Source: Diploscapter coronatus
Taxonomy: Eukaryota > Nematoda > Chromadorea > Rhabditida > Rhabditidae
DNA: 64,000 nucleotides
Assembly (NCBI GenBank): GCA_964036155.1
Contig: OZ038422.1
Coordinates: 69,711,201-69,775,200, forward strand
Direction of reading: 5' to 3'
Shown piece after piece: positions 11,687-41,901 of the stretch (its first letter is position 1; every line of letters starts with the position of its first letter). The translations under genes were made by a program, and so were the position numbers. The notes under the pieces were generated by a model. The model was not told where the DNA came from and ran no database searches. It worked only from the letters and a program-made list of their open reading frames with translations.

Positions 11687-11704
11687 TGTGTGTGTGTGTG
11701 TGTG
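11687..11704. repeat. (TG)n microsatellite
   Basis: Uninterrupted GTGTGTGT run of about nine units in intergenic DNA. Confidence 0.85.
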
Positions 11705-17248: not shown

Positions 17249-19145
17249 ATGACCCACTCAATAGCTCTATTTGCATTTCTAAATTTTATTCTCAAAGTGG
17301 TGTCTGGTAAGTTGCATTCTATCCTACTGATAAATTTAAAATTTACAATTCACGTCCAGTGCCATTGATCTCCGCAATTCATACATAATCAATCACGATT
17401 TTATAGTCGAAAACCAAGAATAATGTGTAAATAGGTAAAATGGCAAATGGTATAGCGTATTGAAGAAGGTACCTGCTAAGTTAGGTATTTCGAAAGAGCT
17501 TGCTGGGAATAAGAATATCGATTCTTCATATGGAGCGACGCTATTTCACCTGCATAAGATTGGAATAAGAGTTGCACGAGGGTGCTAAACAGAGACGAGA
17601 TGGAATTCCGATTCCGGTTACACCATTTTAAATATCAATTCCATATCACCCGTTGCTAAAATCGCAATTGCTACTTCACTGCGCTCGATAAACAAATCTC
17701 GTAAATTATTGCAAATTGAAAATCACGAGGAATTTAGGTTCAAGGCTGAAGTTAAATTAGAACAATCCATCCTAAAACACTTATTTTAAAAAATCAGATA
17801 AATTCTTGGTATTTTTAGATAAATGCTACAGCTGTTCATCGCCCCAGATTTACATGAAATGGGTAAGATATTTAGTGATGGACGTCTCAATATTATTTAA
17901 ATTTTAGCCGAAAGATGAAGAGACGAACGAACTTCAATATCTTCAAGTCTTTCCCTACTTCTCCAATGAAACGTGTGATCAGGTAATTTATTCGAATTCC
18001 GTAAAGACATCATTCTCTCAAAAATTTAATTTGTCGATTAGTTTTAGAAAAATGATTGGCAAGTTTTAGGTTCGTGACTTGTTGCCAGTAGTGGATTGCC
18101 CTAATAGCGTCTGCATCAAAGCTGTTATCAAAGATGCTCCTGTGAAACGAGAAGTCTGCTGTAAGTGCTCCTGTTCCGATTTCACTATTTTATTCTGATG
18201 GACTTCTAATTCTCATTTCATTGCAATGCATCATCAGCATCTCCATACATGCATTATCTATGTTCGCTTCGCTGCATCTTTTATCTCTATTTTCTTCCTT
18301 TATCCTCCAGCTCTCATTCGCTTCATCAGAATAGGAAATTTAACAAAAGGTGAGGCCCTGAATCGATTCCCAAAATGTTAGAACATCTAGGATTTTGCTG
18401 GGAATAGAGAGACATGGTAAAATAGTGTATTCTAATGTCAATTCTCTCAACAAACTTGAAAATTTCAATTATTCAGCCACATGACATTTCAAAATCTTAG
18501 TCCCTTGTATAATTAACCAATTTACTATGACTATCATTTGCAAAATTCACTCGTTTTTCTTAGTTTACTCATTGCTTACACACTCCCTAGCTTCAAAGCC
18601 TGTGAACCTTACAGGGAGCCCAAAGTTCTCTAATTTTCAACTAAAAGAAGGATTCCCAATATCATAATTTAAAATTTATTGTTCAGTGGAAGGCGCTGCA
18701 ATCGTGCGAGACTGTTGGTCACGCGTAATGCTACCAAATGCACCTAAAATGCCCTATTCGAAGCATAACATGGTAAGTAAATGTTGTCCGTAGTTCATAA
18801 ATATTAGAGAAAAACAAGTTAACCAGAATCATGAATTTTCCCTAGTTCTCGTCACTAACATCATTTTACTTCGCAGATTGCATATTTTATGAGGTAAAAT
18901 CACTTACTGATGAGATAGTTTCTTGAAAATCAATAACATTTACAGTAATTCGACGAAGATAATAAATTGGAATTAATCAAAGAAAAGGATTTTAGATCCG
19001 ACTAGCAGAAAATACAGAGACGTCAGAAACTATAGGCTACGTTTACACTTGCGAAGGTTTTTTGTGTAATAATTCACCTAGTCGGCTATTTTCGCTCTTA
19101 ATTTTCACAATATCTGTATTTGTGCATTTCCTATTGAGTTTCTAA
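17249..19145 (+). CDS. Ly6/uPAR-type GPI-anchored protein
   Basis: Small extracellular three-finger protein, probably GPI-linked; relatives in nematodes (ODR-2/HOT group, quiver-like proteins) modulate neuronal receptors and channels. Exons: 17249-17306, 17819-17862, 17908-17982, 18070-18160, 18687-18772, 18996-19145, all phases compatible, 168 codons including stop. Residues 1-20 form a signal peptide (MTHSIALFAFLNFILKVVSG). The mature part opens with DKCYSCSS, has further cysteines at NETCDQ, VVDCPNSVCI, KREVC and RDCW, and closes with YTCEGFLCNNS, the usual CxxxxCN ending. A hydrophobic C-terminus follows (LFSLLIFTISVFVHFLLSF) as a GPI signal. A start at 17162 in the same frame would put the signal peptide internally, so 17249 is preferred. 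Confidence 0.85.
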
Positions 19146-20532
19146 ATAATTTTATCTTAACCTTACTGAAATTACTAAAACCAAAATCTTTAAAAAAAAA
19201 AACGGGTTATCAGACGAGATCTCCAATATTCTGTACAACAATTCTGTATTTGGACTCAAACTTTCGAAGGTATCATACGGGTCTATTGCATAAAAATCTA
19301 ATTTCTGTATGTAATAGTCCTGTTCAATAGAAGAATAAATAGTTTTAAATAAAAATATTTTTTTAAAAAAATGAAGAATACGCCCATTTTGCAGAATTGA
19401 AATAATCAATTATTGTTGTAATGCAATAATTGTTAAATCAGATTCTGACAATAGTGAATTCCATCTCTAGAGATCGGAAAGCACAATGAAGTTTTATCAT
19501 GCAAAGTTAGCATAATACAGCATATCAGTTGGTTACGCTCCTCATTTTACACACTAATTACCATTTTTATAATTGATGATAAAAAATAATGGTAAATATC
19601 TTTAGCCTCTAAAACTGACAAGTCCCAAACTTATTAAACATGGTGTCAATATTCAGTTATCGTACAATTAAACTAGACAAGTTTAACTGGTTTTTGTTAA
19701 AATAGCCAAATATACCGCATCGATTCATTCTATCCATGAAAGACTAGCGAAATTTCAACTTAACATAACCTTCGCCTATTCCAATTATATTTAACACAAC
19801 AGTTTTGAAAATGTATCATTTTCTGAAAACAAGAAACTTATCTGCACTGATGATTAGTTCTGAATAGAACGTTTTTCACCAAATTTTAGAGATCTCCATC
19901 ATGAATAAACTGTTCATTTAAAAAAAAAACTTGCATTTCCGTTTAGGCATGAAATATTCAAAATTGTACAAATTTTAAAGATATTCCATTGATTAGTGTC
20001 TAACTAATTGTGATCGTATTTTCAAATAAAAGTACCATTAATTCTCTATTATTCACAGTAATTTCAATAATCTTGAATGTACACATAAAGTCCATAAGCA
20101 ACAAGAACATCGTAGATAATTACTGAAAAAGAAAAGATCACAAAATTATGAACTCAAGAAATCGGAATAAAATGATGAAACTCTTTCGATTGATCACAAA
20201 ACTGAAGAAAGCAGCATATTGAATTGATAAAAATGAGAAAAATACTTGTTCCGAAAAAAATGATTAACAGGGCTGTTCGGAATTTTGATTCCGAGTCATT
20301 TTGGTTTGAATTTTTCAAAATCAAAACTCCGAACAGTCCTGATGATTGGTCATTTCAATAAAACATGAATTCAACACAAGTTGATTATGATAAAGGGAAT
20401 TCTCAGATAAAAAAAATCAATAAAACAAACGAAACAATAAATTCGACACTGAATGAATGATGTAATGAAGTCGGTTGAAAGATAGGTAATGAGTAAACTT
20501 AACGAAAAAAGAAATGATTGAACAACTCACGG
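19146..20532. other. intergenic, convergent ends of Ly6 gene and cohesin gene
   Basis: AT-rich, without supported genes. Contains a small foldback element at 20268-20342 and several poly-A/T tracts. The 85-codon minus frame at 19152-19409 is AT-rich with no domain and no splice partner. Confidence 0.5.
20268..20342. mobile_element. short palindromic foldback element
   Basis: CAGGGCTGTTCGGAATTTTG at the left is mirrored by CAAAACTCCGAACAGTCCTG at the right, with about 35 bp between. The same CAGGGCTGT end occurs near 35240 and 63543, which suggests a family. Confidence 0.7.
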
Positions 20533-23500
20533 TTAGATCTCGTTAAGAGGAGCATCGCTGAGAATAATTCTGAGACGATCGGCAGTAGGTGGAGTGAGGC
20601 GGCGGGTTGGTGGCTGCGGCTGCTAAATCAATATGTGGATCATTTGAAATGAAATTCCAAGACAATATGTTTCTGAATTGAAACATTTAATAAAAAAAAG
20701 CCTAAATAGTATTTAAGAAAGAATATTTTCTTCCCAAAAGATAGGAAAGAAATCTCGATTTCAAAGAAAACATAAATTCGAGTTATTATTTCACTCTTTC
20801 AGAATTTATCTTCAACATTAGGCAGAAAGTTATTAATTTGGTAGAAGATAAACCTCTACAATCATTTTTAATTAAAACTTGAAAATTACATCTCAGAATG
20901 AGATGTGCAAAAGTCCATAACGTAAGAATAATGTGGAATTACCTGTGCCTGATCGCCATCTCCACGTTTCTGCAGCTGTCTGCGAGCTTCACGGTCTTTA
21001 GCCTTTCCCTGTCGGGAAGGACGACGAGGAGTTATTAAAGGGGCGGCGAGAGGTTTGTGCGACTCGTCAGAAGATGAATTCGATTGGCGACGCTGAAATA
21101 TGCGAGCTGCAAACTATTCTTAAAATGGCAAAACAATTCTGACCTACCTATGCTAGAGTTTCGCAGGAGTTTTTGAATAATGCATTTTATTTGAAATTCC
21201 TATTTTTAATCTCCACTATCGCCTTAGATATTTTAAAAATATAATTGTCACTTTATGTCCTCTCCATCCAACATTTTAGAAAAATAATTTTCCTTAGAAA
21301 ATTTAGATATTTTTTTTGTTTAAATTAGGTATTTCTCAAAATTTGATGTGCGTAGCTATTTTCATAAGAAAAATGAATATCATGAAATTTTCTCGAATGA
21401 AAAATCGAAGTAAAATAAGGATGTTTGCCAACCTGATGTCTGTGAAGATGTGCAGGAGTAGTTGTAGACACATCGCTGGGAGAGTGACTGGATCCAATCG
21501 AGTCAGAAACATAGCCGCCATCCTCTGAGTTGTCCTCCATCGAATCCAGCAAATTGAATGTCGGAGGAGCCTCAAATTCATTAATGATTTTTCGTTAGAA
21601 ATTATTTATCAACTGCATAGTGATTAGTTATGCATATGGATTAGAAACTATGAAAAGCCTGCAAGATATCAAGTTTCCGGTTGCGAGTACTTTCTTACCA
21701 AAACAAACAGTCGAGAAGAAGAAAGAAAAGTGGATAACTAGTGTGATAACAAAGTCGTCATTTCAGTTCTTTAGTAGCAATATGCTCGTAGTCCAAATTT
21801 TTAAAGCTTTTTTTTTTTTAAACAATGAAGTCTCACCAATCTAGTAAAGTTGTGATTGATGACGACTTGGACAGTGGACGAAATGTTTCCGATGTCGCCC
21901 GTATTGCTGATCCGGAAATTGGCAGCGGCCTCCTCGATGACCTTCTCTTTGTGCGAAATCACGATAAACTGCTTCTCACTGCATATCGTCCGGATGTACG
22001 ACAGCAACTGCACAATTAGAACTCGGATTTTGTAGATGATTTTTTTTCGTAAATATCGATATTTTCTAATCATAATCTGGTGGTTGAAGATCCTAGTATT
22101 TTAGATCTCCGAACAAGCTATTCTATAAAAATTGTTCGATTTGAAATTACGAAATAAGAAATGAGTTTTTCGACTAGACCAACCTTGCCAACATTGGTGT
22201 TGTCGAAAGAGGCATCGATTTCATCGAGTACGATGAATGGCGAGGACTTCGTGGCCTGCATCGCCAGCAGCAGGGCCAAGGAAATCACCGCTTTCTCGGC
22301 TAAAATTTTGCGTATTGTCAGAATTGGCTGCGAAAATATGGGAATATTTCTGTGCATTTATTTGAAAAATCTCCTCCGCAGCATAATGTGACCTCGTGAG
22401 AAATTCAAAAATGAAAACTAGCAACCATTGAAAAGTAAGACTCATAGTAAACTAGATATTTTTGTGCAATGATTACAGATTACAAGTATTTCTTCAAAAT
22501 ATTGTTAATAATTCAACTATGCTATCACCTCCAGAGAGCTGTTCGACAGACATCCATCGTTTTCCAGGCGGAACAACACCCAAATGGACGACTCCATCGC
22601 CTTCCCTGTCGTGGAAGGACACTCCCGACAACATCGATGCACTCGCGCTCGAGGACATCGTCAGCAGCTGCAATAGAGAATGTGAGCACCAAGTCTCCTA
22701 GCTTATTATTATTCTTTTAAGCAATCATAAAGAGTGCGCATTATAAACGAGGAAAATACCTACCTTGTAAGTACGATCGAGCTTCCTGCTGACAGCGTTG
22801 AAGTAGTCGTCGAACATCTTCTGTCTTTCCGCTTTCAGCTGAATATTTTTATCGTTTCGAAAAGAAAAAGTTCTAATTTGCAAACTATGGCTTCAAATAA
22901 AAGATGTTCGATATTGAATTTAGAGATGAAAGAAGAAAATTTTGGATAGAATGTTTTTTTCTAATTTCTCTAGAAAATAATAAATTCATCCTTTAATTTT
23001 ACAAAAATTTCCTCGGCACAAAATATATTACCCTCTTGGACTTCATGTCAGCTTCAACCAACTCATCCAGTGCCTTTTTGTATATCGCATCTGCCTCTTT
23101 CTTCGCTTTCATTGCCTCTTTCCATCTGAAGGCAAATATTCAGATGAATTTTCATAGATCAGTATTATAATCAAAGCAAAATACTGAAAACAGCTAAATT
23201 CTTTTTTATAAGCATTAAACTATGCTATAATTTCATTTCAAACAGTTATAATCTCATTCTAAACTCACTCCTTCTTAGCGTGTTCGACAGTCATCGTGGC
23301 TCCAAACCTGTCGATTTTGTTCCTTGCCTCAACCAGTCGGTCTTCCATTTCCTGCAGCTTCTTCTGCACTTTCTTCTCATTGTTCATGTCCATTGCCTAC
23401 AACTCATCTAATTTTACATAATTATAGACAAAGTTGTTCGATCAAACATTATTTATACATAAGAAAATGTACCTGGTAGGTTTCATCGAGCTGGTCGTAG

Positions 23501-26500
23501 TCAGGATGCAGAGGCGCATAGGTATTCACGATCTCCTCGACCACACTCTTGTCCACTTCCGTGTCAGAAGTCGCCTGACTCAGAATCTCTGAAAAATAAA
23601 AACAGAAATGTTACCAAGTCTTATTTTACATAGCAAAACTGACGAAAACTCCTTATGGGTGTCTTCCAATTCAAAACAACAAACCTGAATAATTAGCCGA
23701 GATGTCGACGAAGCCACCCTGTGACAGAGGCAGATCGAGTCCATCCAACTTGCTCAGATGAATCAGCTGAGACCTCTCGAAGGACAGCGACGTATTCTCG
23801 TCCTTCGCGCGCTCCTTCTTCCTCTCTGCAGTCATCTTGTCGCTTTGCAGCTTCTCAAGTCAAATCTTTGATACGCAGCATGGATATAATTTTTTTTTTA
23901 AAATACGGACTATCAAAAATATACTTCCCTCTATCTTCACGCATTTCGAAAATGTACCTGCGTTCTCTACCTATAGCCATATTTGAATTTTGGAAGCATG
24001 TGGCTTTTATAAGAAGTAAATCATTTTTCAACCTGTCGACTCTTCTTGCAGACAGCAATTTCGGCATTGTATTTGTCGATATCCTCCTCATGTTCCCCGA
24101 TCAGTTTCTTCATTTTCTTCACCTCTTCTTCCATCGCCTTTCGTTTTTTCACCTCCTCATCCTTTTTCTTCTCTAGCTTCGTCAATTTGGCATGTTTCTC
24201 TTTCAGCTGAAAAAAAAAATGAGAATCGTTCGAAAACTAATGAAAGTGTTTGTTATATTTTAGCACTAAGCAATAGACGATATTTAGGACATACTTAACG
24301 AGTTTATAGTAAAGCAGAAAATGATTCGTGTATGCAATGATTGTAATCAAGACTAACCACTTTCCCAATCGTATCGATCTTCTTCTGCAGATTCTTTGCC
24401 GATTCTTTCGCCAGTTTCAACTCTGCCTTGTAATTCGTCATCTGTGCTTCGAGTCGATTGTGCTCGTCTTCGCAGCTCGTCATCATAAGCAAATAGCCGT
24501 CCTGAAAATGTTGCAGCATGAATAAATGACTTCTCGTAGTGCATATTTTGAGACGAACATTTTCCTATCAGACTCGATCCCTACCCATAATGGAATTCCC
24601 GAGACCTGTGTCTTTTCTCAAGTGTGTGTCAGTGTCCCTGTATCAAATACGAAAAGCCGATCAAATAATATCAGTGATAACAACGTTAAAACTATTGCGA
24701 AAACGTCACTCACCTATACTTTATGAAAAGTAAACAATCGACGTTCTTATTCAAATTATTCTATGCGTAATTTAAATAAATTTCCTCTTATTTGAAGAAA
24801 TCTATCTTCTTTGCGGTAAAATTGAACAACGAACTTGAGTATTACAAGCTCATCATTGAATACAAAAAGTCAATTTGTACCTGATATTGCCTGATGCAGT
24901 TGAGACCGTGCTTCTGGCAGAATTGTTCGAAAATCTGCAATATAATTTCATTTTTCTTCTCCATCAAATTTATTAACAAACCTGATCCTGCTTCTCAGCG
25001 ATTTTCTTGTTGTTAGCAGTGAGACCCTTTCTGACTTTGTCTGCCTCTTCTTTCGCCTTTTCCAAACTATTCTAAAACTTAAAATTTAACACAAGTTTGA
25101 AAATAAACCTAAATATGATGCTGATTTGTTTTCTTTCCTATTTGTCATCACAATATTATAAAATTGAAATTCCAATCGTAACGACTACTAACCCTTGCAG
25201 TCAGGATGTTCTTTCCCGCCTCTCTCAGTTCGTCTTCCATCTTCTGTTTATCTTCCTTCAACCCATCGATGGCTTTCTCCAGGTTCTCGAGACGTTTTCT
25301 TTCTGCTTGAATGGTGGCACTGAAAATATCCATCAATGACAGAATTGATCATTTTATAAGTAAACGAATGAATAAAAATTGATTCAATGGTTTCAAAATA
25401 GCTGCTTACTTCAGTCTAGGCAGCTCCATCTCGATGTCCCGCATGTCTCTGCGCAGCTTCGACACATCGACTTCCAATTCTGCCTTCTTCGATCGTTTCT
25501 GTCTGAATATCAATAATTCGAGCGTGAATCAAGAATTGTCGAATGAATTATATAATGGCAAAGCGTAAAATATGAGAATTTTCTGGCTTTTCGTATTCAT
25601 TCGAATTGTTCGAAGTTATTCTCCATAATATAGCCTCAATACAAGTGTATCTTATTCGAATTTTGAATTTACGCCTTTACCATTTCCACTCTAACAACAA
25701 ACGCATTGATTTTGAAAAGAAATAATAGCTTACTCTATGTCCTTGTCACTGATTTGCCTCATTCTGGACTCCAGATCCCTTCTGCCGCCCTTGATCATTC
25801 CATTTCTCGAGTACATAGTTCCGTTCAGACAGACTGCATTGTATCTGAAAGCGCGTTAATTGAAATTCATATCGGTTATTTGAAATATTCTTTCTGAAGA
25901 AACATGAAGATCGCAAACCTCTTTCCATTAGCCATGAGCTGTCCGATAGAGAGTCGTCTGGCATCGTTTTCATCGTCCACGAACACATTCAGGCCACAGA
26001 TGTGATGCAACACGCCTTTGATCTTCGAGTCTATCTGCAGTAATAAATTATTGACAATGATTATCAACTGTCAAAAACATCAACGTTAATAAGTTCTGCG
26101 TTTCAATCAAGGACTAAAATCAATGGTGATAAATTTAAAGAAGTCTTAAATTTTTCCAAATTTTGAAAATGGAAATCTAGACGTCGGAAAAAGCAGTTAC
26201 CTTATCGAGATTGAGTAAATCGTAGACAGGACAAATTTCATTGGGTCGTTTGCCGAGAGCTGCAACCATTGCCCTCAGTTGATTCAAGGAAGGAGTGACG
26301 TTCCCTACGGCCACAGGAATGAAGGTCTCTCGGTCGAAACGATTTTTCTGAAATAAAATATTTAAAGAATAATCTGACTTCACACAACATACCTAAGGAG
26401 AATTTGAGAGGGGAACGACGTGAATTGATACAAGAAAAGAAGTTGAAAGATTCAAGAGTTCCTTTAAAATTCACTTACTGTGAGATATTTGATGGCCTCT

Positions 26501-29500
26501 TCACCGACGGAGAGACTGTCACAAATGATGGCGTCCCAGAGAGAGCCGACTGTGCGAGTCACTGCCAAGGAGTACTTCCTGCTAGACAGTTCAATGAAGT
26601 CGCTCACCCGGCCGAAGATCTGCAAATAGGTTAATTTGGAAATGTCTTTGATAAATAAAGCGAATAATCAAATATTATGATTGTCGCTAGTATTTGGCGC
26701 TGAAATGGGCGCACTCCAACCTTAAGACTCATGTTTCAAACCAAAATGAGAGGTGTTTTCTTTTCTTTTTTCTTCCTATAAAGATCGAGAAAAGGGACCA
26801 CGCTCATTTTCGATTGGAGAGAAGTTTCAGGATTGGAGCGCACTCATTTCAGCCCCGAATACTAGCGACGAGCACGATAAGATCATCATCACATAGAAAC
26901 TAAAATAACAATTCTAATAAAAAAATGCATGTCAACCTTTCCAGGGAAGAATATTCTGAGCCTCTCGACCACTTGTTCCTTCTTGTTGCTCCTTCTACTG
27001 TATTCCTGCTGAATGGAGAATTCCCTCAGAGATGCATTCAGTTTCTGTAGCTCGTTCAATTTCTGGAACATAAAATATTCAATCATTTTGCAGTTCGTTC
27101 AATATTTCGCTTTACCTTCTTGTCGTCATTCTTCAACTTTGCCAAATTTTCTTCATTATTGTCTCTTTCAATCAGCGTCTCATTCAGGATTTCTTCAACT
27201 TTGGTTTTTCGGTCATTCAGATCTTTGATCTGAAACAAAGCGAATAAAAAGGATAGTTTTCACTTTGAAAAAACTTTCCTCGACTAAATTTTGCAAATAG
27301 CTGAAAAGTCCGAAAAGTGATCTAACACGGAAATCTTATTCTTTCATAAAGTCATTTCCTTCCGTTTACAGCGATACCCATTCATTGACATTTCAAACCG
27401 ACCTTCTGCTCTAGAATGGCCTTCTTCTCCTTGGCACTTCTTTCATTTTGTTCGAGTCTTTCAGCGGCATTTTCATGATTTGTTGTAATCCTGAAGAAAT
27501 CGTATGGCTTTTTACCATCATCATCATCTAATAAATCGTATGTTAAAGTTTAGTTTATATTCAGAAATTAGACTAAATCCATCATGGGTAGAAAGCGCAA
27601 ATGCTCAAATTTGCATTATTAGAAATTTCTGTTAGAAAAATTCCTCGTAACTAACACAGCAGCCTTATCGAGTTGCGTCTGGAGCAGCTCCCTGTTGGCG
27701 ACCAGCTGAGCTGCCTCCTCGAGAAACGTCCTCTCCAGCTGTTTGTACTCCCTGAGCGATATCTGGGAGAGCTGCAGATTGGGCGAGTCTGATTGACTCA
27801 TTGCAGACTCCATCGCATCCATTTGCTTCTTCAGTTCACTATAAGAAATAAAAGCATTTTCGGAATGATTCAAATAGATGATAAATAATCAATGGGAGTT
27901 CCCGAAAGAAATTTAGAATATTCGCTGTGTGAAGTACTTGTCTTAGGTTAACTGTCATGAATCGCTTCTATCTCATCAACTCATATATTTCAACTGTAAA
28001 ATTTGAAGTCATATCAAAAGTTCCCACTTGATCTTCTTGTCGATGGTCTCGACCTCCTCATCGACATTCCACTTTTCCCTCTCCAGTCCCTCTCTTTCGC
28101 TTTCCTTCTCCTTGATGCTCTTCTCCTGCATTTCCACATTCGCAATCGCTTTTGCATGTTCCAGAGTGATGGCTTCCATTTCCTGCAACAGTTCAATCGA
28201 GGAACTATTGCAATATCTTTTTTTCAAATCTAGTGATAATCAGATCTTTTCATGATACAATGTATAGCTAATCAAATAATTAATTGGCATTCTTGTCAAA
28301 ATCAAATTTAGATCAACTCGTGTGAAATAAAATTACCGACGGTGATTACAATAATCATAAGCAATAACTTATCTGTAATGCACACTTCTTCTCACCCTCA
28401 TTTCCACGATTTTCCTCTTCTTGCGAATCAGCAAGGCCGTTTCTTTGAGTTGCTCCTGCAGTTCGATAATCTTCATGTCTGCCTCTGTCTGAAATACACG
28501 ACTTCAGTCAAAGGACTTGTATTCTCATAAAAATTTGAAGAACTCAAAATGAACGGTGCAAATCCCACCATACTGGTCTCAGCCGCGGTGATGGCAGCAG
28601 CGTGGTCGTCCATCTTCTGCTGGACCTTTTCGATGGCCTTGTCCTTGGCCAGCAGCTTGAACAGACACAGTTGCACAGACAAATGGTTCTGAATGTAGGA
28701 GGAAAAAGTATTGAATAGCTATTACCAAAAAATCAATGAATAGGAAAGAATTGTTTAAATTTAAATTAATTTTTAAAGATTAGAATAACCTTAATTCACT
28801 TTGCATGAAGACTTTCATAATGTATGTTTCCAAAATTTTAGAAATTTGGTAGAATAATATCAAAATATGATACTTAACGGAACTGCTTGATCTACACGAA
28901 ATCCAAGAAACGCTTATAACAATCAATCTCTTCACTAACCAGTTGTTTTCTCTCCCTATTCAACATTTCCAAACTGTCCTTGATTTTCCTCTTCTCATTC
29001 GCAACTTTGTTGGCGAATTTAGATTTCTCAAAGAGTTTATCCTTCATCTGCTGCTTCTCAAGAAGTTCTGCCTGCAGTTTTTCGTCTTCCTTCCTCAATT
29101 TGTGCGATCTGCAAATATCGAAAGGTTGCAATGAGATCTTTCAACTTATTCATATCGTAAGATTTTTCACAATTTCGATTCAATCAAATAGGAGGTGAAA
29201 ATTTCATGAACTATTCTCGACACTAACAAATGTGCCTTGCTCCCTTCAGAAATTCTTTACTTTGGAAGAAAAGTCTTACGATTGAAACTCAATAATTTCT
29301 GTTCAATTGTTTCATCAGTCACATTCTCATACCAACCCGGCAAGTCTCTGGAAGAGATCAGCCCTTTCCTTGGGCTTCATGGTGGCCACCTGACTGATTT
29401 TGCCCTGTTGCATCACGAAATTCTTTGCATTCAGATGAATTCCTGCCTCCTCCAGCTGCTTCGTGTAGTCTTCAGAGGAAGCCATTCTCTGAAAGTTTTA

Positions 29501-30187
29501 TTTATTTCAATAAAATCGGAGACATTTACATCAGATACGATTAACGAGTTATTTAAAGAAAGCGATCATTTAATTTCAACGTTTAAATTGAATTCTCCTT
29601 ACCCGTCCATCGACTTCATACGTGCATCCAGTCTTGCGGTATTCCCTTCTGAAGGTGGTCCTCTGTCCATCGGGCAGCTGAAAGAGCAGCTCGACTGCAC
29701 ACAGATCTGCAGAGGGCTTGCCGCAATTCGATCCGTGAATCAGGAACTGAAATTAAAACAAATTATCCATTTGATCAGAAAAGTTTCAAGATTTCAGAAA
29801 TCTCGAGAATAATAAACTTATCATGGATAGCCTAAAAATAAAAGGGAGAAGTTAGCATTTTTGAAGAGGACATCGAATTAGTTTTGTAACAAATTACATT
29901 AGGTAATAATAGTAATAGTAATAAACGTTCTGTTTCGTCATTGTTGCAATTTATTTTTTCGGAATAGTTTACTCTACTAAAAAGAACATTGCTGACAGAC
30001 CTGAGGATTGAGCCCGCGATCCTTCTTGGAAAGTCGCTCGTTGAGAACGAATCGAATCGCGTCCAGCAGATTCGATTTGCCAGAGCCGTTTCGACCCGAA
30101 ATCACAGTGAATTCCTCGAAATCGCCCACAGCCGTGGTGCCACCATACGACTTGAAGTCCACCAGAGTCAGATAGATTATTTGGCCG
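20533..30187 (-). CDS. cohesin SMC1 part of a kleisin-SMC1 fusion gene
   Basis: SMC1 forms the cohesin ring with SMC3 and a kleisin in the nucleus. The first SMC1 exon (about 30001-30187) begins in frame with [16 protein letters not shown], has no ATG of its own, and contains Walker [10 protein letters not shown]. Next come [11 protein letters not shown] and the [13 protein letters not shown] segment, then coiled coil (about 29.1-26.6 kb). The hinge spans about 26.6-25.8 kb ([44 protein letters not shown]). The second coiled coil follows to 22.7 kb. The C-terminal head has [17 protein letters not shown], the signature LSGAEK split by the intron 22300-22528, and Walker [19 protein letters not shown]. 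After the head an extra tail of about 125 residues, rich in S, P, T and R (21.6-20.5 kb), ends at [10 protein letters not shown], stop at 20533. Roughly two dozen short exons. SMC1 rather than SMC3 is supported by the hinge and by VQLCLFKL near 28.65 kb. Confidence 0.9.
26683..26869. mobile_element. foldback MITE in a cohesin intron
   Basis: TCGCTAGTATT, then GGCGCTGAAATGGGCGCACT at the left, mirrored by AGTGCGCTCCAATCC... and AATACTAGCGA at the right, giving terminal inverted repeats of about 35 bp around a 115 bp centre. It lies in the SMC1 intron just upstream of the hinge exons. Confidence 0.75.
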
Positions 30188-30368
30188 CTGAAATATAGAA
30201 TGGCTAGTTTTCTGAAATAGGAAAAACTGTTTGTAAGCCTATTTTCTCTCTAAAAGCATATGCTATTTTCGGGTTGATCGAGTTATGTCAATTTCTCGAA
30301 ATGTAAGTTATCAACTAGAAATCCTGCTTCTCATCTTCTTTCGAAATAATTGTAACTGATTGACTTAC
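30188..30368 (-). other. 181-bp intron joining kleisin and SMC1
   Basis: The donor is CCTCT|GTAAGTCA (consensus) and the acceptor TATATTTCAG|CGGCC. The donor exon leaves phase 2 and the acceptor exon supplies one base, giving a continuous frame. The kleisin frame would otherwise stop at a TAA inside this donor. No ATG within the intron can be spliced in frame to the SMC1 exon. Confidence 0.75.
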
Positions 30369-33300
30369 AGAGGCAACGGGTTGCGCTCAATGAGAGAAGG
30401 CGGTGGAATGAAAATGGGAATAGATCCTGGTTGTTCATCCCGAGGGATTTGAATGTTGTCAGGAGAGAAAGGTGGAATGATAGGAGATTCCTGAAATCAT
30501 TGATTTAATTTCGTGTTCAGCATTTACATCAACTCTGAAGTGATTTTTCTATCTTGGAATAGTATGAGTAAATTATACCGGAGGAATGTCTTCTCGAGGC
30601 GCTTGGAAGACTTCAGTCGTGACAAATCGCTTTATCACTTCAATTTCTTCCTGCTTGTCCCTCGCGTTTGGGTCATTCTCGATAATTCTATTCCACAAAG
30701 ACAGGAATCGATTCTCTAAAATGAATCCTTGAACATTACAATTAAATGGAATAAGAGTTTCTGAATGATAGACCAATGACTTGGAGTTGTGATCACTGAA
30801 TTTGTAAAGGAAAATAGAGAAATTTTCATCGACTAGAAAGGATTGCAACATTTTAGCCTCTGAATGAGCCGTTTTTCTTTTATCCCACATTAAATGTTAC
30901 ATTAATGAAATCTTTTCTTCTCGCTCAAAGCAATAAGATTCGTTTAATTTCCTTCCAGAAAAGTACTTACTGAAGTCGTTGGTGGTATTTGCAGGAAGAT
31001 TGAGTGCTTCCTCGAGCTGCCTGTCGTGCTGTCGATCCATCCTCAGTCTGTTCTGCGCGAGGAATTCCGCATCCTGTTCCTGCGTATTCCTGCATGTGAT
31101 GTCGCCCCAGTCACGAATCGCCTCCTTTATTTCCTCCTGAAATTTACTCATTTCAATGAGCCTACATTTCTTGAAGATCTGGCATAAGCAGTGACAACTT
31201 GTAAATGGCGAGATAACGAAATCTATCTTTTCCCAAACTATTTCATTTTACTTTCTTTTCTCCTACTCCTAACTATAGGTCTCATCGCTTTATTCTTACG
31301 TATTTCCTATGTAACTGAATGAAAAACGATCAAAAAGTCATTTTAGTTGCAATTTCTAAATTTCAAATCAGAATGGTATTGATTTGCTTTTTTGACTTAT
31401 AAAGTTCATCCAACATTTTGATAGAGTATTTGGCATCGATTTCAAGTCTAGTATTTTGAATAATGATAACACCTACTACACCCAATCTCTGGACTATAAA
31501 ATGGCATTAGTGAAGTCCATCATCGATTAATGATTAGCATAGTATACTCTACAGAAATGCCATCTTATCTTCCAACGATGAATCGAATAGTGTAGCCTAC
31601 ATAAGAAATGGCAATGTCATGGTCGATAAGCTTCCTTGTCCTTTTCGGCGGTCTGGGCGTCGTGACGAGTGGATTGGGTTGCTGCACAGGGATTTCTTGA
31701 GGGGAAGGACCGGGGTCCTCTTGAGTCTGAAATACAAAATACTAGCCAAAGATTTTAGAATATCATCATTTCTTTGTCTATGTAAACTGTCATTCTATCT
31801 AGCTTCCATAAACGCTGTTTGTGTGACTTTTAACTTACCTCATTAGGACTACTAGGATTCGACCTCGGTTCTTCCTGCGGATCTTGTTGATTTTGTGGCT
31901 GGTCTTGAACTTCAATAGGAGGCTCATTTGGAATGGCAGGCTCAACGAAGAACATCGAACTCTGATTTTGGAGGGGGCTGAAAGATGAATAGTCAATTGA
32001 ATAAAGGACAGAAGTAATTTATCGCAAAGAAGATTTTCATATGCAATTATCAGGCTTAAACAAATTGAATCAAATCTATCAATTATGATGGACGTGATTT
32101 TCATCATCACAGCCAAATGGTTTAGCAGCAGAGATGTGTAAATCTCAGTTCCGCTCCGACAATTTTCGTTCGTTCGTTCGTCATTATATAATAAAGAAAC
32201 ACGAGTAATAGTTTTCTTGGAAAATTCTGTTCTGCTTTCATTTCCGAAAACTTAGATAAGCTCCTTCTGTTTCCAAAGTAACAAGAAATTCCTGCACTCC
32301 TATTCAAGAGCATTGAAATAGGATAAACTCACCCGACTGTCTCATCCCCGAAGTAGTCATCAGGATTGAACCAATCGGGTTGAGTAGGCGCCGGGTCTTC
32401 AGGCATAGTGAACAGATTCCTCATTCTCGGATCTGCGAGTGGGTCAGGCTGAAATGAGAAAGCTCACATTTGAAGATGAACACTTTTCACTTGGTTTCTT
32501 AAAAAGACCATCACCCAGTTTCGCAACTTCTTCATCATAAACTATTGCACTAAAGCGAGTGACTTTTGAAAGAAGTCATTTCATTGTGATTGTACGAAAC
32601 GATCAAATGTCTTTATTTTTCACCTCATGTCGCTTGCGCTTCCTTAGTATGTGCTGATCGCCCACTTCATCTTCCTGATCTTGATTCAGTTTCGACCTTT
32701 TGACTAAATTTTTTTTCCGTTTTCCAAAGTCCGTTGATGTATATTTCAAAAGAAATTATCCGATCAACAACAGATTATTTGAATTGATTTTAGAAGTTTT
32801 TCTTCAAATATATTTCCAACATACTAGATCTTTTTTTCAAGAAGCTTTTAATATTTGCAAATGATGAATGAATCTATTCTGTAGCACGATGATGAAGAGC
32901 TTCACAATATAAATTTCGAACTTTGTAACATTAAAAACTCTTCTGTTCTCTTCGCTTAAAAATCAATCATGCTACAGGAAATAATCACACGTGAAGAGAT
33001 GTGCATCCGTTCGCAGACGATTTTGTAAGAATTAGCTGCTTGACTGAATAAGTAGAGCAATTTACCTGGAGCTGTACGGGGAGTGGTGGGAAGAACGTTG
33101 ATGATGCTCGAAGTCCGAGAATCAGCTGAAATATTTGAATTTGAAAGATGGTCCGTACGTAAATCTTCTATTGGGAAAGAAAAGCAAACGGTGAAGAAGA
33201 AGAAATTGAAGACAATGTACCAAGGAAGAATTCGGCCTTTTTGCGCAGAAGGACTGTGAGACCCAGGCAGAGAGTGCTGCGGGTGTACAGGTCGAACTGT

Positions 33301-34113
33301 TTGGTCATGTTCTTCGGTCCGCAGGCCTCTTGCAGCACGGAGTGACTCTCAATCGAGTTGCTGGAATTTCAAGAATTCCCATTCAATGCAAACACTGAAT
33401 CATTAGAAGTGGAAAAAGTCGCAATTTAAATGATCAGAGGAGAAATTATAATTCAAAAATTTTCGACTTCCAAATATATTTTGGCGCTGGCTGATAAAAA
33501 CGGGAAATTCTGTTGATGCAGTCAGATAACCACGACAATTTGCGCATGTCTAGTGATGAAGATTTAAAATTCTTGGAAATCAACCCAGTAATAACAGGAG
33601 TTTTAGCTATTTCTCGAGATGATTTACCAATTTTCAAACTTCCTGGAGAAGTGAGAAGTCTTAGAAATCCTTGAATGTCAGCAGTAGAAGGTATAAAAAT
33701 CTGCTGATTGAGAATTCATTCAAAGCTTGGAATAACTTGAGAAGTAGGCTTGTGAAAGCTCGACATTTGTAGTGCCTGAAGTTTGGCCTCTTTTAGTTGC
33801 TATCCGACTTCTCAAAATTCGACCCGCATAAAAATAGCATGTTTCGAGAGAAAAAGACGTCATGAACATTCATTGCCAGCCCGAATTCTCAAAAATCAGC
33901 GAGAGCTCGCCTTCACTGTCACTAACCAGATGTCAATGATGTCTGCCTGCATAGCCTGTCGCTTCGTGATGGAGGACACATCGCCTGTGCCCATCGCTGC
34001 TAGCCTGCAATCAAGAAATTTATCGAGTTTTTAGCCAGAAGAGGGAATTTGATTTCCTACCAAGCAAAGTGGAACTTGGACCCGTTGCCAAAGAGGCAGT
34101 ACGAGACGAACAT
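30369..34113 (-). CDS. RAD21/SCC1-type kleisin part of the fusion gene
   Basis: Kleisins bridge the SMC3 and SMC1 heads of cohesin. Starts at 34113 (MFVSYCLFGNGSKFHFAW; RAD21 proteins start with a similar strand followed by WLAA). Exons: 34061-34113, 33927-34004, 33221-33360, 33066-33125, about 32625-32704, 32333-32451, 31849-31978, about 31611-31729, 30966-31140, 30579-30717, 30369-30490. The second exon gives WLAAMGTGDVSSITK, the third CNSIESHSVLQ and a typical strand TLCLGLTVLLRKKAEFFL, so the SMC3-binding N-domain is present. The middle is acidic, P/Q-rich, with PPKRTRKLIDHDIAISY matching the RAD21 KRKRKL motif, then IRDWGDI and FKNRFLSLWNRI. The C-terminal winged helix that normally grips SMC1 is not found; instead the last exon (ending ERNPLPL) splices into SMC1. 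Confidence 0.8.
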
Positions 34114-34578
34114 CGTGAGGCAGGGATGGCCGCAGCAGAGCAGCGGCGAATCGGACGAGGTTCAACCGCTCTGAGCTGGAAGATCGGGAAATTGCAAGAA
34201 ATCGAAAATCCAACGGAAAAATAATGCAGCGAAAAACGTAAGTGGTTCTGTTGTGCGTCGAGTGTGTCAGTTACAAATTTGGCAATTATTATTTATCGTC
34301 TAGCACAACAAGGAAAATAACACAATTTTGAAATAATTGACAGACGGAAATAGGACCGACTGTCCAAGACGGAAACCGGAGAGGGAATGATAAATGATCC
34401 GTATTCAGTGGTTGAAGAGAGAAAAAAAAGATAGATAGTGAGAGAGGGAAAAGATGTTGAGTAAATGAGCAGTGTCCGATAGGCGGCACTAGTTGATGAC
34501 TGCTGTTCAAGTTGAGCTGATTCTCCTGAATTACCGCCTACTTTTCTGTTTCAATTGTAATCATCACCAACCCTGCGA
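34114..34578. other. gap between small membrane gene and cohesin gene
   Basis: 465 bp on the minus strand between the stop of the small membrane protein and the kleisin ATG. It is short enough for a nematode operon spacing or a compact promoter. No leader acceptor could be singled out. Confidence 0.4.
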
Positions 34579-34906: not shown

Positions 34907-35438
34907 TTTTGCAGGTTTTCAACGATGCTCGAAATTTCTCGATGAGAAATAACGCCGAGATTGGAGAATTTGTTTGCTAGAACCGTTATTCTAATTTTTA
35001 ATCTACAAGTTTTGAGATACGTTTTTTTTTTTTTCGAAAATGACCATTAATTACCGTCCTTTCCGGAATAACTCACTTCAGAATGGATATTTTCGAGGGG
35101 TGTGTTAACATAAGTTGATCAATTTTTCGATATGCTATCAATTATTTATTGCTTTTCCTGCATCTATTTGACAGTATTTAAAACATTTTATTTTCTGGTA
35201 ATGACATTGTCGCAAATAATGGAGAGTAAATGACAGGATCAGGGCTGTCTGAAGCTCGAAGTTCAGTTCAGTTCGTACAATCCTGATTAAAAAGAATATT
35301 TATTTCAGTTGAAATTTTTCAGCGTCTTTATTGGATGTCTTCGAGAATTGTCTGTATCATGTGCATTGAAATCAAATTATTATTTCACATTTTATTGAAT
35401 AAAATTTCTATAAAATCTGAGATTATTATAATCAACTT
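34907..35438. other. intergenic, with a copy of kinase 3' flank
   Basis: AT-rich. Near 35238-35287 is a CAGGGCTGTCTGAAGCTCGA sequence like other foldback ends in the window. 35305-35400 (TGTCTTCGAGAATTGTCTGT, CACATTTTATTGAATAAAAT) resembles 49070-49165 in the same orientation. Confidence 0.45.
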
Positions 35439-36674
35439 TTATTCCATGTTAATTTCTCCGACTACACACCATTTATCCGTTTGTGGATCGTATTTCCCGA
35501 TTAACCTGTGAAGTCTAAATTAACAAATATTTCGTATAAAGATGTGCCGAATATCAGCTCACCCTCTGATTGCATACAACTTTCCATTTGCGGCAACAAG
35601 AGAATGACGATATCTTCGATAATTCATATCAGCGATTTGAGAAATTCGACTGTCAACTGGAGCTGAGGGATCGAAACACAGATAGGATTTTAATACACTA
35701 TCACCACTAAATATATAATGATACATTATTTATCATACAAAATTAACGACTTCGATCCTCCAGTTATGTAAATTCTTCCATTTAGCGATGCAACTCCGAA
35801 ATGATATCGAATTTTTGGAATCTCTCCTACTTCAATCCATTCCCGTTCATCGCCTGATAGTCGATATATCTTTTGACTCCACATTCCATCAATAACTGAA
35901 TGTCCATAATTACAATAATAAATACGCTATAGTGTGACCGTATAAAATTTCATCGCATGTTATTGGTTGAGCTTCACTAATTGGAAGAGGAAAAGCAGGT
36001 CCTGTTCCCCATTTTCCATCCATTAAAATCTGAATAAAGTATTTCATGGACTTTCATTCGATCTTCTTACATCAACTCGATTCGTAACTTCCCCTGTTTT
36101 AGGATAGTATCCACCCAGATAATACAATTTGTCTTTGAAATAAGCGACAGATGCATCTATACGCCATTCAGGAGGATCTGGGCCTGTAAAATTCTTTGAA
36201 TCGATCATTCATGGATTTGCTGAGCAAACCTCTTGAAATTTGTCCAGTATTCAGATCGAAAATTTCAAACGATTCTTTAGAAGAATTCAATGCAAAAATC
36301 TAAAATTATAAAATTGTGATAATGCCAAATAAAATAACCTACTTTATCCTTTGTAGTTGCTACTTCACATGACGATAAATCATGAGCAAAGCTTGCAATA
36401 TGCTCAACAGAATTAGTATGCGAATCAAATAGACAAATTCTTCCTTCTCTAACATAGTTGTTTTTATAAGATACTAAAATTAAAATTAACTTTCGAGAAT
36501 ACAACAAAACATTTTCCTACGATAGAATAAAGTTTTCCTCTTGAGCGCCATCGGCAGATGTTTCTTGATTATTTGCATCATCCGTCTATTAGTCCAGGCC
36601 AATTTTCTCAGATCTTTGAATTCGGGATATTGGCAGATCAACAATATAATTTCGACTGGTAGATTGGCTAGCAT
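35439..36674 (-). CDS. F-box and kelch-repeat protein
   Basis: Probable substrate adaptor of an SCF ubiquitin ligase. Exon 1 (36521-36674) encodes an F-box-like start: MLANLPVEIILLICQYPE, then FKDLRKLAWTNRRMMQIIKK. Exon 2 (36343-36473) and later exons give kelch blades: IFALNSSKESFEIFDLNTG, AYFKDKLYYLGGYYP, IYRLSGDEREWIEVGEIP, NGRIYITGG and AANGKLYAIRG, ending YDPQTDKWCVVGEINME, stop at 35439. No signal peptide, unlike the kelch genes at 38.7-48.7 kb. Borders of exons 3-7 were not all fixed, but each blade exon is flanked by AG and GT. Confidence 0.78.
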
Positions 36675-38718
36675 CTTTGTTGAGAGACCTAAACAATCAC
36701 CATAGTATTATTTCGAAATGGAAACAGTAGAAGAGTAGTGATTGAACGAGAAAGTCTGCAATTAGTGAATTTGAATTTAATGATTGAAGAAAAGGAAATG
36801 AAACTGCTAAATTGATGCTTTGCAATTTTTATCAGACTAAAAATCGATTCCTAAAACTTGAAGATACATGCTGAAATAAAACTACCCGTATATTTATTTG
36901 TCGGTTATACACGACGCAAATGACATTTCGTATCATCAAGTATTTTCCATGATTACTAACGTTATAATATCATTTCTATTGCTGCTGAAAACCTGTTGAA
37001 TTTCAAAATGAGTTATTTGGAAGATAGGAGATTGTTCATAACGTTCATTCGCATTAGTGATACATAGTCTGAGAACAGCCGAATTATTGAAATTAAAGTT
37101 CTTTTTTTCGATATTTAGTTCATTGAAAATGTATTCATAAGATAACCTACAGAAGTAACTAGTCTTTCTTAGTTAGTGCTGAAGCCTACAAACGCGTTCC
37201 ATTAATAATCCAACTGTCACAGATCATCATTTTCATCTATAGGTTCCTTATCCAACTCAGAAAAGTAAGACAAACCTTTGAAAACATTTAGGGATTGTCA
37301 AAAAAAGATAAAAAGTAATGTCAAGTAAGGTTTTCCTTCCCTGTCTTTTGCAAGCGAGAAAGAGTCAGCCCAACGATGAGTTTATTAGCAAACGAGAAAC
37401 AAATGAGAATCGTATCAAATGACCGTAACTTTGCGTGGAATGGACCGTTTTCAAAAATGAGTAATAACAAACTCGAAATTCTACACAACGAAATGAAATT
37501 TCAAAAGAGAAGATAAGAAAATGAAAATCTCGTTACATAATGGAGAACATCCGAAGAAAGCTTTTTGGGATATCTTAAATCTCTCATTATACGACGAAGG
37601 ATACCCAGAGAAGATCATTTAAGATCCCAAATCTAGAAACCTTAAAATTTTCTAGATATAGAGAAAAACAAGGCCAAATAAATAAGGGAATTAGAACTTC
37701 CTCGCTCGTCGTTCTAGTGCCAGCCTTTGACTGGCTGTTAGAATTCTAATTACCTCTACTGAATAGCTTTATCTCAAATAAACTAAATTCGATATTATTT
37801 GTCAATTATAATGAACCATTTACTTTGACATTATTGTTTTTGAAAAGCGCTGTGAAGATTATTCAAAATTTCAGGTTAAATTTGGAAATTGAAATCAGAA
37901 TGACGATTGATTGGAATAAGTTCGCATGAACTAATTTTTCAGTATGAAATTCCTTTATTTATTTCATTTATAAAAAAAATAGTTAGATCACAAAATCATC
38001 TTCGAAATCATTCAAAAACAGTCAATTTACTCGTCTATGTTTAGAGGGGCCAAATGAATTTTCGAAACTGATAATCATGAACTAATTTTATACCAGGGTG
38101 ATTGATAGTATATACCGGAGCAGAATGCTCTTTAGACCTTGGAAAATAGTTCAATGGATGAACTTCATTATTCAACCTCGACTCATAGTGGACTGCTACA
38201 CCTCTCTTCCTAACTTAGATTTTTTTTTTTTTCAAATTTTTAATCTAAGAAAATTTTTTCAAATGATTTGTGTTAACGTATACTAATGATTGATAAAATA
38301 GAAAGTGAAACGTGTAGTAGGAAAATCGATATCGTACTTTCAGAGTCTGATATGGAGATTTTTGGAAGATCCTTAATTTTCGAGATAATGCGATCCCGAT
38401 ATATTCACAAATCGCGATTTTTGTAGGTTTTGGGGAAAGTTTCCAACTACAAAGTTTGGGAAAAAAATCCATAGTATAGCATACAAAAGCAATTTTTCAT
38501 GATTATCAATTAGAAACTTGATCAGATGGGTTGAAAAAAAGTGATTGAAAATTTTCAATTTATAATTTGAATGCTAATTTTGACTATTTTTTTGAAATAA
38601 AAATTTTCTGAAACAATTTTTTTTTAAATCTCCATAGTCGATTTGGGTAGTTTACCTGAGAATTTAATCTTAAAATTAAAATTTGAAAATTGGCCTTCCT
38701 TGAAAAATATATACATTC
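36675..38718. other. intergenic between two kelch genes
   Basis: No supported gene. 36777-36880 resembles the sequence just after the receptor-kinase stop codon (48708-48812), same orientation. 37695-37770 resembles 46235-46315. The rest is AT-rich with only short frames. Confidence 0.5.
37695..37770. repeat. dispersed repeat, second copy at 46.24 kb
   Basis: GCTCGTCGTTCTAGTGCCAG and GGCTGTTAGAATTCTAATTA match GTTCGTCGTTCTAATGTCAG and TGACTGTTAGAATTTCAATG at 46.24 kb, same orientation. At the second site it begins with the palindrome GAACGACGAACGAGCTCGTT. Confidence 0.6.
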
Positions 38719-41700
38719 TTATATAGTAGAGGTAATATTGCCATTGATGGCTCGGTGAAATTTCCCCAACATACTGAATGTATTCCATCTGTTAAAGGAT
38801 GGATCGTATTCTTGAATGGGCCACACATTTTTGCTTCGTCCCGCAGTTTCCCATCCACCGATAACATACATTTTGTCATTAGCGTCCGCCATCCAGGTAT
38901 ATTGACGCCCTATGGGCATATCAGCTATCTTTTTAGAAAATACAGCTCTTCCATTTTTAGTCCAGAACGCTTTACATGTTCTAAATAACCAACAACGTTT
39001 TTCGGCTTCCTCTAATTGGCGTTGTTTGATCACCGTCATCAATTGTGCTTATTATCGGATTTAGGAATTAGGGAAAAGGGAAAAATTGTCGATAAAATTC
39101 GGTGATCAAGCACATTTGACGACAATGATCAGGCGGTGACAGATACAGGTAGTCTTTTCCTTATTTCTGCCAAATAAAAATCCTTAAGATCGCTATCACT
39201 TACTTCAAAACCTTTCCTTCAGCAGTGATACCTCCGCAGATGAATGCCTTGTTCCTAACACAGGCGTAGCCAGCATAGGTCCTGTTGCTGTCCATTCTGC
39301 CGATTTCTTCCCATTTACTTCCAGGCTTTCTATCATATTCGAATACTTTAAGATCGCACTCATTGGTAACATCGACAGCTGTAATTTTAAATATCTAAAA
39401 ATATCACCATATATTGCCAATGACTGACAACTTGAGAAAAAATAAACGATGCGCAAATTCGAATCTGCAAAGTGTGCATTACGTAATATCAAATGTCGTT
39501 AAAGTCGTTCTTCGAATCAATAAAATGTTGTCTATTAGTTTACAAACAACATGCCAATTTCTATACATCAAATTTTCGTTCCTTTTATTTTGTCTCAAGT
39601 TATTGGTCATTGGCAATAATAACTGATGAATTATACAAATGGCTGAAAGCATATTATTCTAAATAATAAAATTTACCGAATATTCTATTCTGGCATTCAA
39701 TAAAGTTAGCAAAACCCATTTTACAGTTCTCTGGGAAACTCGGACCAGATTTCCATTCGCCTGTACCATTTACCTAAATTTCTTAATCTATTTGAATGAA
39801 TTGAACATGTGTTCTAAACGTGCCTGATAACTTGTGGTATTCGAATTAATATACCACAATTCATCTCCAAATCCCACTAATGTGTCCCTTGCGGACATGA
39901 CATTTTGAGGCAAATGATCTGAAATATAAAAATTTAGTAAAGGCTAAAAGTTGTGAATTTAATTTAATAATAACCAAGTGTTTTCTCCTTCTTCGTAATT
40001 GCATCATACAATTGTATTTTAGCGACTTTTTGCCGATCGCTCGTTTTATACATCGCATAAAACTGAAATTATTTCGTAAAGAATATTGTATCAACTATTT
40101 TAACACATGATCAGATTCTTACCTTGTTTTTTCTATTGCTAACCACTTGATAATAATTCAAGTCTTCAAGAGAACCAACAACAGTAACTTTGTGATTTAG
40201 ATCGATCATGTCAAGTGCGCACACATGATTTCCACCATAATCTGCAATAATTAATATCTTATTTAAAAAAAAAAAGTTCGCAAATCAATAATCAGTAAGA
40301 ATTTATGATATTATTCTTCACGCTGACCATAAAAATACGTTGTGCGTGTTGTAATAATCTGAAAATAGTTGTTAATTGTCATTAAAATGCTCATTTTGAT
40401 ACAAACCTTATCAACCTTGCTATGATCGGAAATGTACTTGTGAGTCCGGTACCAAGAATCAATTACTTCTTGGGAATAACTGCCAAATAGTTCCTTAATT
40501 TTGTTTCTAACGTCCGCTTGAACCGTCCCTTTCGCAGAGGCTTCGATTATCTGGTCTCGAATTTTATCGTCCAATTCTTTCACCTGAAAACTTATCCACT
40601 TTTTAGGCATTATAATTGCATAAACCAAGTAATAAAAAGCCTTTTGTATTCCACACCAGAGTTGGTCAAAGACTAAAATTTTAAAACTCTAAGTCAAAGA
40701 CAACGATAAAGCTTTGTCCAGTCTTGTTCCAGAGGGAAGGAGGGGAAAAGAAGAAAGTGTGGGTGTGGAATACAAGAGATAGTCATAAAATACAAAAAGT
40801 AAATTTCAAATGAAAATTCTATTTTTTATATTCGCGTAAAAATTACCACATGCGATGCATTCTTTTCGATCAATTTTTCGACAAACTCATCGTTGTCCTC
40901 TATAAATTCCGGCTTATGGAAAAAGACATCGAGACACCAATTAGAAAAAGATACCGATTTTCTAAGAAATAATATGAAGAAACAAGAAAAGAAAAGAAAA
41001 AAAAACTGATATCTTTTTCCATGAGCCATTTTTAATAGCAATTTTACCTTTTCTATCAGAAATCGATCATCAGAAAAATTTATTTGATCGTCAGAAAGCT
41101 TTACTTGATTTGGTATTGTCAATAACAACTCTAAAATGGCATTCGAAATTATAAATTAAATAGAAAAAGAAACTAACCATTAATAATATCATCGATGGAT
41201 GAAACTTCTATCTCCTGTGGTTTAGTGACATTCGGATTGTCATAACGAGGAGTTGTGGAGAATGCCTTTGTGCCTTCAGTGTTATTAGGCAAGGCCGTTG
41301 ATTGTGGCTCTTCCTCTGGTCTACACAAAATAACAATAAAAAGTCTTACGAAAAACTTACTGGGTAAATGCTAGATTTAGTACTGTGAAAAGTAAGAATA
41401 ATGAAGATCTCCAATGAAATACCATATCTGAATGGAATATATAGAAATGATTTATACTAAAATAAGTATGTAAGTCTCTAGATCTTTCAGAATTCGCTCA
41501 TAACTTTAGAAAGAATTATGGAACTTCGATTGTGCCCTACTAAACTTGACAAAATAATTCACAAGCTTTGATTGAGATGATAAAAAAGGTTAGAAAATGA
41601 TAAAATATGATTCTAATACCGAGATACCGATGTTAATGGATTCATATTTGAAAATCCTATGAACAACAGGGGTGTTAATGCAAGTATTAGCAAACACTAA

Positions 41701-41901
41701 ACTAATGAATTCGAGTCGTTCCAGATCTAATCGATTTTCTAGATTAAATCAGTACGTTTTTCGTTGTCATTGCACATTGCGTATTAATAATCGATCTTAC
41801 AAGAGAACCTTTTTAGGGTCCCGTGAAATTTCGGAACGAGAGTAGACTCGTTTGAAAGCATCAAATTCTAAGTCGATTCAGTAACTTTCCAAGAAAAATT
41901 G
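38710..41901. repeat. left arm of inverted duplication 1
   Basis: Reverse complement of about 42026-46215 with many substitutions and indels. Matching landmarks include GGATGGGAAACTGCGGGACG, AAATCGGCAGAATGGACAGC and AACTAATGAATTCGAGTCGT. The outer edge falls just past the last kelch exon. The right arm carries extra sequence, including an exon at 43011-43148 and a foldback element at 44.6 kb. About 125 bp separate the arms. Edges read by eye, within a few tens of bases. Confidence 0.85.
38719..41425 (-). CDS. secreted kelch protein, ectodomain-only copy of the receptor kinase
   Basis: Mirror-image paralogue of the ectodomain of the gene at 42483-48722. Signal peptide at 41425 (MVFHWRSSLFLLFTVLNLAF), then an acidic linker (SSIDDIIN), helical exons (FIEDNDEFVEKLIEKNASHV; VKELDDKIRDQIIEASAKG) and kelch-like blades (VCALDMIDLNHKVTVVGS, ELWYINSNTTSY, GRMDSNRTYAGYACVRNKAF, NDKMYVIGGWETAGRSKNV). 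It runs off the copied segment: where the paralogue splices from WNTF to its transmembrane exon, this copy keeps the GTATGT donor but has no downstream kinase; read through, it ends SMLGKFHRAINGNITSTI, stop at 38719. It lacks the exon equivalent to 43011-43148. One intron has a GC donor (CAG|GCACGT). Could be a soluble decoy or a decaying copy. Confidence 0.65.

Follow-up and report, generated by a model that had tools for sequence, protein, structure and literature searches.

The C-terminal domain of a kleisin binds SMC-1 and its N-terminal domain binds SMC-3, as set out by Hiraki et al. in 2017 (PMC5483258). The first of these contacts has been made covalent in engineered proteins. A yeast Scc1–Smc1 fusion is reported to leave cohesin turnover undiminished, unlike a Smc3–Scc1 fusion (PMC3485559), and purified Scc1–Smc1 rings are reported to entrap DNA, with no passage of DNA through the Smc1/Scc1 interface, at least when the other two interfaces are sealed, in purified engineered rings (PMC9467508). 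Judging by these two reports, the kleisin–SMC1 interface should probably not be called a 'gate', and a natural fusion at this joint would be the mechanically permitted one.

A natural fusion of this kind is already known and was published in 2017. Hiraki et al. describe the Diploscapter coronatus protein g17488.t1 as a fusion of a REC-8-type N-terminus with HIM-1/SMC-1, with a complete SMC-1, no kleisin C-terminal domain and a place on a single homologue (a singleton), in an animal with a genome of 170 Mb and 2n = 2 that still has its ordinary HIM-1 orthologues and another three pairs of kleisins (PMC5483258). In their tree the kleisin of g17488.t1 is placed with REC-8/COH-3/4 and apart from SCC-1/COH-1, its pairwise REC-8 score being insignificant (E 4.8), and the authors propose a link between the fusion and the modified meiosis of this nematode (PMC5483258). 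In the Diploscapter literature that we searched, the fusion is described only by Hiraki et al., and the accessible portions of PMC12629237 and PMC11258339 make no mention of it.

Here we analyse a window of 64,000 nucleotides of D. coronatus DNA, whose minus strand carries a gene that is probably g17488.t1. Like the published protein, it has a kleisin N-terminus and SMC1 in one frame, no C-terminal kleisin domain and one homologue that carries it; a difference is that 410 kleisin residues are given for the 2017 tree and 405 are found in the window. To the published account we add an exon map, the exact segment missing from the other homologue, the introns shared with canonical SMC1, the copies in Diploscapter pachys and a difference in evolutionary rate.

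The locus resembles each of its closest known counterparts in part. As in engineered Scc1–Smc1, the C-terminus of a kleisin is joined to the N-terminus of SMC1, but in the natural fusion no kleisin C-terminal domain is detected and the normal genes are still in the genome. It shares the domain order and motifs of canonical nematode SMC-1 (Caenorhabditis elegans HIM-1, P0140), yet its SMC1 part is only 25.3% identical to that protein, against 48.7% for the canonical SMC1 model of the same D. coronatus homologue, and it carries a kleisin part, of which HIM-1 has none. With the alpha-kleisins RAD21 and REC8 it has in common the N-terminal domain PF04825; unlike in them, the SMC1-binding C-terminal domain is not found and the chain runs on into SMC1.

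Gene structure and domains

The gene comprises 43 exons from 34113 to 20533 on the minus strand and 1,776 codons without an internal stop, in a splice model that was assembled manually from open frames and splice signals and then set against program-made splicings of two D. pachys proteins onto the window. Splicing of one such protein, P0001, left 35 of the 40 exons of the earlier model unchanged and added three tail exons, and splicing of the shorter model P0002 left 32 of the 40 unchanged; the final coding span runs from 34113 to 20536, followed by the stop TAA. The product reads, in order, as a truncated kleisin of roughly 405 residues, SMC1 and a tail. The kleisin part (30369–34113) is encoded by exons 1–11 (34113–34061 through 30490–30369). 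It is followed by the 181-bp junction intron (30188–30368), with donor CT/GTAAGT and acceptor TATTTCAG/C, and then by exons 12–40 (30187–30001 through 22007–21837), which encode an SMC1 part of about 1,246 residues (21837–30187) with both head lobes, coiled coil and hinge. Walker A (GRNGSGKS) lies in the SMC1 head at 30073–30096, the SMC hinge lies within exons 23–25 at 25919–26619 (PF06470 at residues 510–634 of the SMC1 part), and exons 38–39 at 22184–22667 hold the signature LSGAEKAV, split by an intron, and Walker B. The C-terminal tail (20533–21570), known from the splicing of P0001, consists of exons 41–43 (21570–21433, 21092–20943 and 20622–20536) and the TAA. The acceptors of exon 33 (TTGAG) and exon 41 (TTTGAG) are non-consensus.

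Profile searches place a Rad21/Rec8 N-terminal domain (PF04825) at residues 1–95 of the kleisin part, with 31.7 bits (cut-off 23.1) and E 1.8e-7, and find no match at E<=1 to the winged-helix kleisin C-terminal domain (PF04824). Against 2148 kleisin-length candidate proteins the kleisin part has no homologue at E<=10, and against solved structures a single low-complexity match (E 0.58). By profile, the SMC1 part is an SMC head, hinge and second head, and its top matches among solved structures are SMC1A/SMC1, with 357 bits (E 1.7e-105) for SMC1A as against 133 for Smc4, 89 for SMC2 and 82 for SMC3 in the same search. The first 217 head residues matched only prokaryotic SMC and other ATPase models in NCBIfam, all under their cut-offs. 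Walker A, hinge, signature and Walker B follow one another in SMC order; both Walker motifs of the ATP site (A, GRNGSGKS; B, LDEID) are conserved, and the signature is LSGAEK in place of the LSGGEK of canonical SMC1.

The junction of kleisin and SMC1

The gene model supports a single polypeptide containing kleisin and SMC1, as a preliminary description of this DNA had proposed. At 30369 exon 11 breaks off in phase 2; the missing third base comes with the acceptor before 30187, from which the SMC1 head is read in frame, and no stop interrupts the frame at the junction or anywhere in the 43-exon model. Also borne out were the claims that the intron holds no usable start and that the SMC1 exon has none before Walker A: no ATG between 30368 and 30188 has an in-frame splice to 30187, no Met occurs in the open stretch extending upstream of exon 12, and the SMC1 part reaches its first in-frame Met at residue 113, beyond Walker A. 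The junction donor had been called consensus, which is true of its intron side (GTAAGT) but not of its exon side (TCT), and owing to that unusual exon side it ranks 41st of the 42 in the gene by score; its score of 3.1 in a leave-one-out matrix is matched or beaten by 90 of 511 unused GTs. The acceptor ranks second of 42, and none of 873 unused AGs scores as high.

A weak donor and a strong acceptor, as a trans-splice acceptor might be, would also suit two separate products: a truncated kleisin that ends at the donor TAA when the intron is retained, and an SMC1-like protein that is trans-spliced at 30187 or begins in an alternative first exon. The stop codon stands exactly in the donor, where an in-frame TAA inside GTAAGT would be read if the intron were left unspliced. 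Both SL1 and SL2 are described for D. coronatus, and the initial ATG of canonical SMC1 directly follows a TTGCAG acceptor, a possible spliced-leader site. The preliminary description had found no upstream ATG exon; this stands for the intron but not beyond it, where 14 candidate ATG-to-GT stretches between 31140 and 30369 are phase-compatible with 30187. One of them starts at ATG 31095, outside the kleisin frame, and uses the real exon 9 donor, whose score is 4.4 against 3.1 for the junction donor. A start upstream of the intron is compatible with the sequence in principle.

Further, just before the SMC1 head, near 30160, both D. pachys copies have a Met (LTLMDFKSYGG) that could serve a separate SMC1-like product. 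In the window this residue is Val and the next Met is residue 113, past Walker A, so that a product starting at 30187 would be without the ATP site. The kleisin alone, for its part, would be without the SMC1-binding domain, and gene models in two species join the two parts, the D. coronatus gene set having been predicted, according to its description, with RNA-seq intron hints. On this balance we regard two separate products as unlikely.

The same junction is found in a relative, a search that the preliminary description had suggested: NPLPL/GQIIYL is identical in D. pachys P0002. P0001 also joins both parts, but its model skips exons 10–11, and the two D. pachys models disagree over the exons adjoining the junction. 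The presence of the same fusion in D. pachys proteins and, as reported, in the 2017 D. coronatus assembly rules out a chimeric assembly that joined unrelated genes. For such a chimera we found no supporting point, the frame is continuous and splice-compatible, and its probability is negligible.

Presence on one homologue

The genome assembly of 169.7 Mb consists of three contigs of 87.7 Mb, 82.0 Mb and approximately 13 kb, and we take the two large ones, here C1 and C2, as homologues because the SMC and kleisin genes on one match those on the other and are arranged in a common order. The fusion gene lies in a segment of 15.1 kb found only on C1 (19358–34490 of the window in the homologue alignment), in place of which C2 has 170 bp of unrelated sequence. 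To its left, window positions 10000–19357 are collinear with C2:65123574–65132760 at 94–96% identity; to its right, the window from 34491 onward is collinear with C2:65132931 onward at 82–89% identity. Searches with the 170 bp of C2 against the window gave only matches of chance length, those with the kleisin part against the rest of the genome gave no other match, and those with the C1 segment of 15.1 kb against the rest of the genome gave only short repeats.

Several repeats lie in or near the segment. A repeat of about 245 bp at 34246–34490, with many copies genome-wide, stops precisely where the C1-only segment has its right breakpoint. A palindromic element at 26673–26879, in an intron of the SMC1 part, has 57-nt arms that are 77% complementary and many diverged copies on both homologues, and looks like a miniature inverted-repeat element. 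Beyond the segment, 35026–37139 has more than 30 matches at about 73–85% identity on both homologues, a candidate expanded gene family or mobile element, and stretches of 38734–46318 recur, partly inverted, on C1 at 69.93 Mb, about 180 kb distant, and on C2 at 65.30 Mb, with about 82–96% identity.

A separate canonical SMC1 is present on both homologues, at C1:29.60 Mb and C2:27.86 Mb. The spliced models of 1233 and 1237 residues are free of stops, their first exon being spurious, with 16 differences in 1233 residues between the alleles (dN 0.0097, dS 0.135). Three further pairs of kleisin N-terminal domains lie at C1:19.29/C2:18.24, C1:68.39/C2:63.94 and C1:19.91/C2:18.82 (all in Mb), consistent with the three mitotic kleisin pairs reported by Hiraki et al. 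(PMC5483258). Kleisin C-terminal domains were found at the first two; the profile search detected none at the third (C1:19.91 Mb and C2:18.82 Mb), where the domain may be split by introns or absent. The fusion is an extra, hemizygous paralogue, and the idea that it is the animal's sole SMC1 is ruled out by the separate SMC1 on both homologues. In view of these canonical genes and the three other kleisin loci, there is no support for the broader conclusion of the preliminary description that the kleisin–SMC1 gate is covalently closed in this animal.

Origin of the fused SMC1

Eighteen introns of the fused gene are identical in place and phase to introns of canonical Diploscapter SMC1. From the junction on, the fused gene has 32 introns, counting the junction and the three tail introns, with 28 inside the SMC1 part; the canonical total of 37 includes one spurious first intron, which is excluded from the 18 exact matches. 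When intron places are shuffled, the mean is 0.41 matches and none of 5000 shuffles reaches 18. It follows that the fused SMC1 arose by genomic duplication of smc-1 and not by reverse transcription. A near match between the junction intron and the first intron of canonical SMC1 was discarded, the canonical first exon and intron being spurious, with the ATG directly after the acceptor. We tentatively infer that the 5′ acceptor of the duplicate was taken over as a cis-splice acceptor and, because of the in-frame TAA inside GTAAGT, that the old stop of the kleisin became the donor.

In a tree of 33 rows made by a quick method (six Diploscapter sequences and 27 picked by hand from 240 listed proteins), the fused branch has a length of 4.1 changes per column against 0.65 for canonical Diploscapter SMC1. 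It attaches close to the root, next to the long outgroup branch of SMC4, with a warning of long-branch effects, and we do not trust this placement; the test does not reject a clade that unites it with canonical Diploscapter SMC1 (p-AU 0.31).

Copies in D. pachys

Two D. pachys proteins, P0001 and P0002, which may or may not be alleles, carry PF04825 together with SMC domains. Compared with the SMC1 part of the window, one is 93% identical over the whole of that part and the other 97% identical over 81% of it. In counts of differing residues, the window and P0002 disagree at 36 of 1012 positions of the SMC1 part, the window and P0001 at 79 of 1245, and P0001 and P0002 at 58 of 1011. By this pattern, P0001 and P0002 are probably copies that are older than the divergence of the two worms; the C2 homologue of D. 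coronatus would then have lost its copy. The kleisin part lacks the pattern (28 of 362 against P0002 and 21 of 320 against P0001), perhaps owing to the differing exon models in D. pachys. The canonical D. coronatus alleles differ from the canonical D. pachys protein (P0121) at only 14 of 1068 and 11 of 1071 residues, so that the protein difference between the worms is 3.6–6.4% for the fused SMC1 and 1.0–1.3% for the canonical one.

This faster divergence, the very long branch and the hemizygous state are what a functionless pseudogene on one homologue would show. A pseudogene is, nevertheless, improbable: there are zero stops or frameshifts over 1,776 codons, D. pachys has two copies, the ATP-site motifs are kept with the exception of the signature change, and the protein evolves more slowly than neutral, assuming the dS of 0.135 of the canonical alleles. 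A gene of minor or waning importance would agree with the long branch and with the lack of a copy on C2.

Discussion

Several lines of evidence, namely gene structure, domains, motifs, the D. pachys copies, the presence on one homologue and the ordinary SMC1 on both, make it highly probable that the locus is the Diploscapter kleisin–SMC1 fusion gene of 2017 (or a close relative's copy), expressed as one mRNA beside ordinary cohesin. The parts of this reading that we infer are that the junction is spliced in vivo, how the events followed one another, that a ring forms and that the fusion has a role in the modified meiosis.

Under the fusion reading, a duplicate of smc-1 would have landed behind a kleisin gene and been joined to it by a cis-splice, one mRNA then encoding kleisin N-terminus, linker and SMC1. 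The docking of the kleisin C-terminal domain on the SMC1 head would be replaced by the peptide chain itself. Judged from its domains, the fusion would most likely pair with SMC3 at two places, the hinge and the site where the kleisin N-terminus binds SMC3, giving a ring of two polypeptides that could still open between SMC3 and kleisin, and it would work alongside ordinary cohesin and not as a replacement. The most far-reaching form of this proposal is a natural two-polypeptide cohesin (SMC3 plus the kleisin–SMC1 chain) that lost a docking domain through the covalent link, is used by a parthenogenetic animal in its one-division meiosis and has already been lost from one homologue. We offer it tentatively, as somewhat more apt to be wrong than right.

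The weight of the finding is limited by the nature of the gene, an extra, fast-evolving paralogue that is absent from one homologue and has already been reported. If the fused protein is made and used, the kleisin C-terminal domain would be dispensable once the link is covalent, and the locus would stand as an evolutionary test, in agreement with the engineered rings, that the kleisin–SMC1 joint need not open.
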